Below, in pieces: positions 100 through 14,990 of a DNA stretch of 37,282 nucleotides. A model generated the notes under the pieces. That model searched no databases. It had not been told where the DNA came from and worked only from the letters and a program-made list of their open reading frames with translations. This DNA is from Clostridiales bacterium. Lineage in GTDB: Bacteria > Bacillota > Clostridia > Lachnospirales > Lachnospiraceae. The position numbers and the translations under genes were made by a program. Position 1 is the first letter of the stretch. Each line of letters opens with the position of its first letter. The DNA is taken from the NCBI GenBank assembly GCA_029227635.1, contig JAQYAH010000049.1:1-37282 (forward strand). The letters run 5' to 3'.

Positions 100-115
100 T
101 CGTCTGTCCTCCCAT

Positions 116-207
116 GAATCATCAGAAGTGCCCGATGGGCACGTTCTGAGATTGTCGCGGTCGCCAAATTCCGGGTTCTGCCCGGACCTTGGCTCGTCGC
201 TAAACAA
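116..207 (-). promoter_or_regulatory. Structured post-terminator RNA element, copy 1
   Basis: A 92-nt element between an intrinsic terminator and the YgjV-like start codon. Minus-strand reading: helix P1 (UUGUU, UA bulge, GCG paired with CGC-GACAA) encloses a long hairpin P2 (GCCAA/UUGGC, then UCCGGG/CCCGGA with loop CAGAA). P1 is followed after UC by hairpin P3 (UCAGAA/UUCUGA, bulged C, GUGCCC/GGGCAC, loop AUC) and a tail UGAUUC. Two other copies (8715-8807 and 14621-14714) share blocks and length. P1 begins in the last U's of the terminator tract. The element ends two bases before the GGGAGG ribosome binding site. The element is seen directly; its regulatory role is inferred. Confidence 0.7.
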
Positions 208-238
208 AAAAGCCACACACCCAGCAAGGGCGCGCGGC
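206..238 (-). terminator. Intrinsic terminator in the leader of the YgjV-like gene
   Basis: The minus-strand arms GCCGCGCGCCC (228-238) and GGGUGUGUGGC (212-222) form 11 pairs with a 5-nt loop, followed by UUUUUU (206-211). Three of the pairs are G-U in the minus-strand RNA and would be A-C mismatches on the plus strand, so the hairpin is functional only in the minus direction. It lies between the promoter at 290-319 and the gene, so it would block the gene unless bypassed. Confidence 0.75.
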
Positions 239-8685: not shown

Positions 8686-8714
8686 GGTCTTATCCTCAAA
8701 CACTTTCTAAAAAC

Positions 8715-8807
8715 GAATCATCACAAGTGCCAGATAGTCACTTTCTGAGATTGTTTGCATTCTCCAAGGTCAGGGCACTGACCAAACTATGGCACGTCGC
8801 TAAACAA
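8715..8807 (-). promoter_or_regulatory. Structured post-terminator RNA element, copy 2
   Basis: A 93-nt element directly downstream of the tRNA-Leu terminator. P1 pairs UUGUUU with AAACAA, then has a bulged A and GC/GC. P2 has stem GGUCAG/CUGACC inside CCA/UGG. P3 has UCA, a G-G mismatch and AA pairing, a bulged A, then GUG/CAC with apical UAUC. Blocks shared with copies 1 and 3 are UUGU, AGCG.CG.GC, ACAAUCUCAGAA and UGAUGAUUC. It ends about 30 nt before the start of the Cys-cluster gene. The conserved structure is seen in the sequence; its function is inferred. Confidence 0.7.
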
Positions 8808-8836
8808 AAAAATCTCAAAACAGTAGTTTTGAGATT
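8806..8836 (-). terminator. Intrinsic terminator of tRNA-Leu
   Basis: AUCUCAAAAC and GUUUUGAGAU pair as a perfect stem with a short loop (8812-8835), followed by seven U's (8806-8812). It begins 4 nt after the mature 3' end of the tRNA. The last U's form the 5' strand of helix P1 of element copy 2. Confidence 0.85.
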
Positions 8837-8839
8837 CAA

Positions 8840-8924
8840 TGCGGAGGATGGGACTTGAACCCACACGCCAATAAGAGGCACAAGATCCTTAGTCTTGCTC
8901 GTCTGCCAGTTCCGACACCTCCGC
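8840..8924 (-). tRNA. tRNA-Leu (anticodon AAG)
   Basis: An 85-nt class II tRNA. Acceptor stem GCGGAGG/CCUCCGC with discriminator A; D-arm with the GG pair in AACUGGCAGAC; anticodon stem CAAGA/UCUUG with loop CUAAGGA; variable arm UGCCUCUUAUUGGC typical of leucine tRNAs; T-arm GUGGG-UUCAAGU-CCCAU. The anticodon AAG is at 8888-8890 and would read CUU, and CUN codons broadly if A34 is deaminated to inosine. CCA is not encoded and must be added by CCA transferase. It has its own promoter and terminator. Confidence 0.95.
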
Positions 8925-14586: not shown

Positions 14587-14620
14587 GTCAATTCCTCCTT
14601 CACTGATCTAACAATAATAC

Positions 14621-14714
14621 GAATCATCAGAATAACCCGATAGACCTATTCTGAGATTGTAATCACCCGCCAGAGCTTCAGACACTGCCGGAACTCTGCT
14701 CGGCGCTATCACAA
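14621..14714 (-). promoter_or_regulatory. Structured post-terminator RNA element, copy 3
   Basis: A 94-nt element between the T-box terminator and leuA. P1 pairs UUGUGAU with AUUACAA, so pairs 5 and 6 differ from copies 1 and 2 but are compensated. P2 has CAGAG/CUCUG below UUC/GAA with loop CAGUG. P3 has UCAGAA/UUCUGA extended by UAG/UUA-type pairs with apical UAUC. It ends with UGAUGAUUCG, 22 nt before the leuA ribosome binding site. The leuA leader thus carries two consecutive RNA structures. Conservation is visible directly; function is unknown. Confidence 0.7.
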
Positions 14715-14750
14715 AAAAATCTCTATCAAACCTAAACGGTAAGATAGAGA
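14713..14750 (-). terminator. T-box terminator of the leuA leader
   Basis: UCUCUAUC (14743-14750) pairs with GAUAGAGA (14720-14727) around a 15-nt loop that can pair further, followed by seven U's (14713-14719). It lies just downstream of the T-box antiterminator sequence, and its last U's form the 5' strand of helix P1 of element copy 3. Confidence 0.88.
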
Positions 14751-14990
14751 CGCAAATTCATATTTACGCGGTACCACTCTATTTCATGGAAAACCATGCA
14801 CTCATGCAACACCATCATGTCGCTGTCTCTTATACGGAAGACATCTCCGTCTGTACCTACACAGCAAAAGCCTTCAGCCAGCAGCTCTGAGGCGAGTTCA
14901 TATACAACATTACGACAAGTCTTGCACCAACCGACTGTTCTCTGATTATCCTGAAGTATACTACTATTCCTCTTCAACGCATTTAAGTTT
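14713..14990 (-). promoter_or_regulatory. Leucine-specific T-box riboswitch upstream of leuA
   Basis: The T-box core AGAGUGGUACCGCG is at 14767-14780, preceded by GAAAU. Upstream, Stem I begins with GAAGAGGAAUAGUAG and contains AGAGAACAGUCGGUUGGUGCAAGAC (distal loop region). The Stem I 3' side reads AUGAACUCGCCUC. CUC (14894-14896) after GAA fits a leucine specifier codon followed by a purine, to be read by a GAG anticodon. The terminator at 14713-14750 competes with the antiterminator. Uncharged tRNA-Leu should promote readthrough into leuA. The specifier is my assignment from local pattern; the T-box itself is clear. Confidence 0.92.

Follow-up and report, generated by a model that had tools for sequence, protein, structure and literature searches.

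Several described systems share features with the element reported here. The pneumococcal BOX, RUP and SPRITE sequences are small, non-coding, folded repeats interspersed in a Firmicute genome and thought to be mobile, and they at times insert in T-box leaders and cluster together (PMC3049150), all of which recalls our element. However, their sequence and structure are unrelated to it, they have terminal inverted repeats, and SPRITE is itself terminator-like, whereas our element sits behind pre-existing terminators in a single orientation. REP sequences and REPINs, which are mobilised in trans by TnpA-REP (RAYT), likewise form many intergenic hairpin copies near gene 3' ends with a genome-specific consensus. 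The element differs from them in lacking a GT[AG]G foot, in having three helices over about 90 nt, in being tied to a terminator T-tract and in reaching high copy numbers in several genomes that have no Y1 gene. In IS200/IS605 and REP systems, guide tetranucleotides lie at the feet of hairpins (PMC6006769), and the ends of IS200/IS605 elements and their short derivatives resemble ours in their hairpins, in a guide-like tract at the hairpin foot and in a short T-rich target with the insertion on its 3' side; in contrast, the two hairpins of our element are unlike each other, its target is a hairpin plus a T-tract, and several carriers have no TnpA. Group IIC introns recognise a DNA stem-loop and the T's that follow it, the latter by pairing with A's (PMC10190682), a target much like the one described below, but the element measures only about 90 nt and has neither ribozyme domains nor a reverse transcriptase (RT). 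Some copies sit within T-box or riboswitch attenuator leaders, although the element is not a part of these and is mostly found elsewhere. Unlike strict MITEs, it has differing ends, no terminal inverted repeats and a target-site duplication of a few T's at most. By these tested features, the element falls outside strict MITEs, REP/RAYT systems and group II introns.

The window copies and the extent of the family

The window, the whole 37,282-nt stretch of Clostridiales bacterium DNA that was analysed (contig JAQYAH010000049.1), carries three copies on its minus strand, delimited by model match and alignment at 113..211 (copy 1), 8712..8811 (copy 2) and 14618..14718 (copy 3). These agree with the positions 116-207, 8715-8807 and 14621-14714 given by an earlier reading of the letters alone (the sequence-only reading). 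Copy 1 extends from the T-tract through helices P1, P2 and P3 to GATT, with a mobile core at about 118-205. The three copies, each of about 93 nt, align over about 100 columns with a mean column identity of 82%, and the blocks that had been claimed for them are present in this alignment (UUGU, AGCG, ACAAUCUCAGAA and UGAUGAUUC being common to all three). The common fold proposed with these blocks was recovered in part: single-sequence folding gave P1+P2 and P3 in copy 1 (z -6.0) and copy 3 (z -2.9), whereas the best fold of copy 2 differs and is not better than that of shuffles (z -1.2), and P1, P2 and P3 of this copy are predicted from the alignment. All three copies start in the U-tract of an intrinsic terminator, as had been stated, and the order of terminator and then element recurs family-wide. 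The terminator hairpin flush upstream of copy 1 (212..238, minus strand; read from the sequence as GCCGCGCGCCC..GGGTGTGTGGC followed by T6) ends a short leader, that of copy 2 (8811..8836, minus strand) belongs to a tRNA-Leu gene (8840-8924), and that of copy 3 (14720..14750, minus strand) is the attenuator of a T-box leader upstream of leuA (RF00230, 114 bits; 14743..14986, minus strand). This leader is the context of copy 3 but lies outside the element, which sits between the attenuator and leuA. On the minus strand, positions 239-340 hold a promoter-like sequence and the short leader ending in copy 1's terminator, with a weak similarity to Rfam trpB that, at 23 bits, stays below the threshold of 59.

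A covariance model built from the three window copies (R1) was run on the genome from which the window comes, which is assembled to 1.75 Mb in 86 contigs and is 87% complete. At E < 1e-3 it found 30 copies, at unrelated loci; the resemblance of the three copies is therefore far beyond chance. A second model (R2), made from 18 sequences after a 7-nt insertion in member L108 had been taken out by hand before alignment, matched 77 of the 397 Lachnospiraceae genomes sampled (E <= 1e-3; best 10 candidates per genome scored), so that the covariance-model search of Lachnospiraceae suggested by the sequence-only reading returned many homologues. In a class-wide sample of 391 genomes, two from outside Lachnospiraceae matched (E <= 1e-4; best 10 candidates per genome). 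The load per genome in other Lachnospiraceae genera reaches 40 or more copies, and BLAST matches numbered 44 in G118, 45 in G383 and 23 in G182 (best 40 candidates per genome scored). No family in Rfam 15 matched the element at gathering or permissive thresholds, in line with the sequence-only reading, which knew of no class with these blocks. The literature searched, which covered few subscription journals, held no earlier description of the repeat. The element is thus a large, new repeat family with no prior description found, and an abundant one in common gut bacteria.

Searches of IMG/VR for the exact core pattern and of plasmids for one element subtype gave zero matches. Ten faecal scaffolds labelled 'Bacteriophage sp.' in GenBank, including MT836568 (L334), match the element, and the six examined are unverified and unannotated. 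One of the scaffolds has a T-box-like leader and an apparent tyrS start beside its copy; these scaffolds are thus probably bacterial DNA, and we rejected a phage-borne origin.

Target sites and evidence for mobility

Folding revealed a hairpin flush upstream of 85 of 94 copies (mean z -4.9), compared with 19 of 93 for a downstream control stretch, and most of the nine exceptions do have a hairpin, separated from the element by extra T's. A stricter, hand-written stem test was passed by 74 of 95 copies and 3.3% of shuffles, but because it misses bulged hairpins, the folding result was used. The targets include T-box attenuators (copy 3, L138, L148 and L151) and the attenuators of TPP (L123), FMN (L127) and lysine (L144) riboswitches. 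Terminators and attenuators are hence insertion hot spots, and the element could alter read-through as well as T-box and riboswitch leaders. When long ORFs stood in for genes in the window's own genome, 23 of 28 cases had an upstream gene running in the direction of the element; on the downstream side, 20 genes were co-directional and 6 opposing. What follows a copy may be a gene start, promoter-like sequence, a convergent gene or a tandem copy. The constant context claimed by the sequence-only reading accordingly fails on the downstream side, and its observation that copies end before a ribosome binding site holds for the three window copies but not for the family. A second palindromic repeat, TTGCATTGCATATCAATAATTGGTCC..GGATCAATTTTGAT, is also found at terminators and adjoins the element (L294, L313 and L315 in G118; G409:C1 near 166190).

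Comparison of copies exposed sharp boundaries. Over 95 bases, copy 1 is identical to the copy at G000:C41:22397, an unrelated locus; the identity ends at the T-tract and after GATGATT, and the flanks beyond are unrelated. The nearest relative lies within the same genome for 29 of the 30 own-genome copies and for all sampled copies of G337 and G191, and near-identical copies (97%) occur in different genera. Many copies stand in tandem, are truncated or lack P2. In the congeners G118 and G409, some elements are common to both at orthologous loci, but an orthologous terminator near G118:C1:129872 carries the element in G118 and not in G409, where the sequence is TTTTTACACG; this empty site is not perfectly clean and could possibly be a deletion relic. 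Near G118:C1:259986, a copy lacking P3 in G118 corresponds to a plain terminator T-run in G409. The same two genomes harbour at least 75 copies of a 142-bp MITE, GTAACTATTCAGT...ACTGAACAGTTAC (L183, L234-L263), whose empty form reads GGTGATTTTAAATGCA or GGTGATTTTTTATGCA and whose filled form reads GGTGATTT-ACGCG...ATCGTT-TAAATGCA, with the insertion in a T-run. The filled form measures 233 bp against 142 bp for the empty one, a net gain of 91 bp. Five filled copies were seen, and since they carry one insert variant, a single insertion probably spread with the MITE. In G383, a 530-bp repeat with copies 96-97% identical has the element inside (L296, L299 and L305).

These comparisons delimit a unit that starts in or at the end of a T-run and ends at GATT or AGTT. 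They show that it expands independently in different lineages, builds tandem arrays and degenerates, and that orthologous terminators can gain or lose it. Sharp-ended, near-identical copies and filled and empty sites, both hallmarks of a dispersed mobile repeat, were thus found. The sequence-only reading had named random positions, like those of a mobile repeat, as evidence against a cis-acting RNA; mobile-repeat behaviour is indeed what we observed, but the positions are terminator-specific rather than random. We conclude that the element is most probably a terminator-targeting mobile repeat of Lachnospiraceae, non-coding, non-autonomous and only about 90 bp long, of the same general sort as REP, BOX and MITE repeats. 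Several observations weigh against this conclusion: none of the enzyme families searched for tracks with the element, the 97% identical copies in different genera need horizontal transfer or constraint, covariation of helices across genera would also be expected of a functional RNA, and the filled MITE copies probably go back to one insertion, while one of the empty orthologous sites is imperfect. On balance, the best reading is that the element behaves as mobile repeats of the REP or BOX type do, and that its target is the terminator T-tract.

Proposed movement and candidate mobilisers

As a terminator-targeting mobile repeat, the element would enter, always in the same orientation, the T-tract that directly follows a terminator hairpin, those of T-box and riboswitch attenuators included. 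What moves might be the folded element in single-stranded form, DNA or RNA, with an enzyme acting in trans. In the outer part of P1, the target T's would pair with the element's internal AA, which could alternatively pair, within P3, with the TT at the element's 3' end. This 3' hairpin with its TT (P3) may resemble the target, and such a likeness would explain the tandem copies. Effects on neighbouring genes would be incidental or locally co-opted, and single copies could possibly exert a local regulatory effect. We tentatively propose, as a possibility that we consider somewhat doubtful, a novel type of structure-guided mobile element of less than 100 nt, in which three helices are present, the T-tract is read by base pairing, a hairpin and TT recreate the target, and movement in trans depends on an enzyme other than a Y1 transposase, a reverse transcriptase or an IS110 transposase. 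With this family, the question of how folded elements of so small a size can move in the absence of the usual enzymes can be put in concrete terms.

The search for a mobiliser addressed several enzyme families. Y1_Tnp had no match in G000, G337, G383, G182 or G280, all of which are carriers and most of which have many copies, whereas it was present in several element-poor genomes. Neither a group II RT nor RVT_1 was found in G182 (98% complete) or G000, and IS110 was missing from some carrier genomes. As their presence does not track the element, the Y1 transposase, group II RT, RVT_1 and IS110 were rejected as its mobiliser. The matches scored in these searches of G118, G383 and G182 (at most 40 candidates per genome, a number exceeded by the candidates in G118 and G383) included no candidate for a longer autonomous version with the same ends. 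The mobiliser may have been lost, may lie in the missing 13% of the window's assembly or may be of another kind.

One alternative is that a Y1 (HUH) transposase mobilises the element by its hairpins, in the manner of REP/RAYT systems or of IS200/IS605 derivatives, with hairpin ends, a guide (ACAA/AUAA) beside the hairpin foot and insertion 3' of T's. Its two hairpins, a guide-like tract that pairs with the target T's and the absence of target duplication beyond the T's would suit such an origin, as would the guide tetranucleotides published for hairpin feet (PMC6006769). Nevertheless, the uneven distribution of Y1_Tnp among carriers and element-poor genomes, together with the missing GT[AG]G foot, renders this origin unlikely.

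Covariation and the regulatory-RNA alternative

The compensatory helix changes described by the sequence-only reading were borne out. In a MAFFT alignment of 18 sequences, both partners are changed in at least one sequence for 18 of the 33 pairs, compared with 7.5 +/- 2.0 for shuffles and at most 11 for slid partners. Among 66 distinct sequences fitted to R2, two-sided changes occur in 28 of the 33 pairs, and the covariation score is 0.388 against a slid maximum of 0.119, although this model-fitted alignment is biased towards structure. Covariation in the helices is therefore strong relative to the shuffled and slid controls. Within P2, ACGA faces GAC in a conserved internal loop, and a single base bulges out of P3 close to its foot. 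However, departures from Watson-Crick pairing (in columns at least 70% Watson-Crick) comprised G.U and A.C in numbers of 24/17 in alignment A3, 15/9 in A4 and 32/30 in A5, a ratio of about 1.1-1.7 to 1 in the element helices, whereas tRNA stems from the same loci gave 18 G.U and 2 A.C in a small calibration of 15 tRNAs. This near parity argues against selection on a sense RNA and fits DNA-level palindromes or decaying copies, so that the strong covariation does not indicate selection on RNA.

A rival proposal is that the element is a host cis-acting RNA that folds after terminator read-through and serves the downstream gene as an antiterminator, processing site or riboswitch. Helices that covary across genera, the sense orientation behind terminators and the several copies that separate a gene from its riboswitch or T-box attenuator would all agree with it. 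Yet such an RNA would be transcribed only when termination fails, convergent genes or promoter-like sequence can follow it, the genes concerned are unrelated, and G.U is not in excess over A.C. Four related leuA loci have a T-box ahead of leuA and no element there; the single weak match in the leuA loci searched is cut by the locus edge and lies downstream of leuA. We consequently rejected the element as part of the leuA T-box mechanism. Across the family, the structure covaries, but the copies neither keep a constant position before a co-directional gene nor are conserved with orthologous genes. Given the varied downstream side, the absence from leuA leaders, the identical copies at unrelated loci and the filled and empty sites, the functional cis-regulatory RNA suggested by the sequence-only reading is unsupported and, in our judgment, improbable. 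The case thus cautions that a mobile repeat, and not just a regulatory RNA, can produce covariation together with a fixed terminator context.

Group IIC introns insert beside a DNA stem-loop and pair with T's, but a retroelement origin of our element, through kinship with these introns or mobilisation by them, is very improbable. The target type is the same, with a stem, a spacer and T's paired with A's (PMC10190682), but the element, at about 90 nt, lacks intron domains, no intron family in Rfam matches it, and G182 and G000 contain neither of the reverse transcriptases searched for. Alternatively, a host protein of the chromosome or of transcription might bind the element, with gene conversion, and not transposition, keeping the copies of each genome alike. 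This would account for the genome-specific consensus and for wobbles that show no strand asymmetry, but it is scarcely credible in view of identity that stops exactly at the element ends, empty orthologous terminators, insertion within a MITE and many truncated copies.

Beyond the terminator-targeting copies, distant copies of the core occur within longer palindromic, MITE-like repeats in G697, which belongs to another family (L210, L213, L216, L219 and L222); they again lie behind a hairpin, which lacks a long T-tract. Within P2, columns 26 and 60 of alignment A5 are unpaired, with A opposite C, in most genomes and form G.U or A-U elsewhere, and this A/C position may be a recognition feature.
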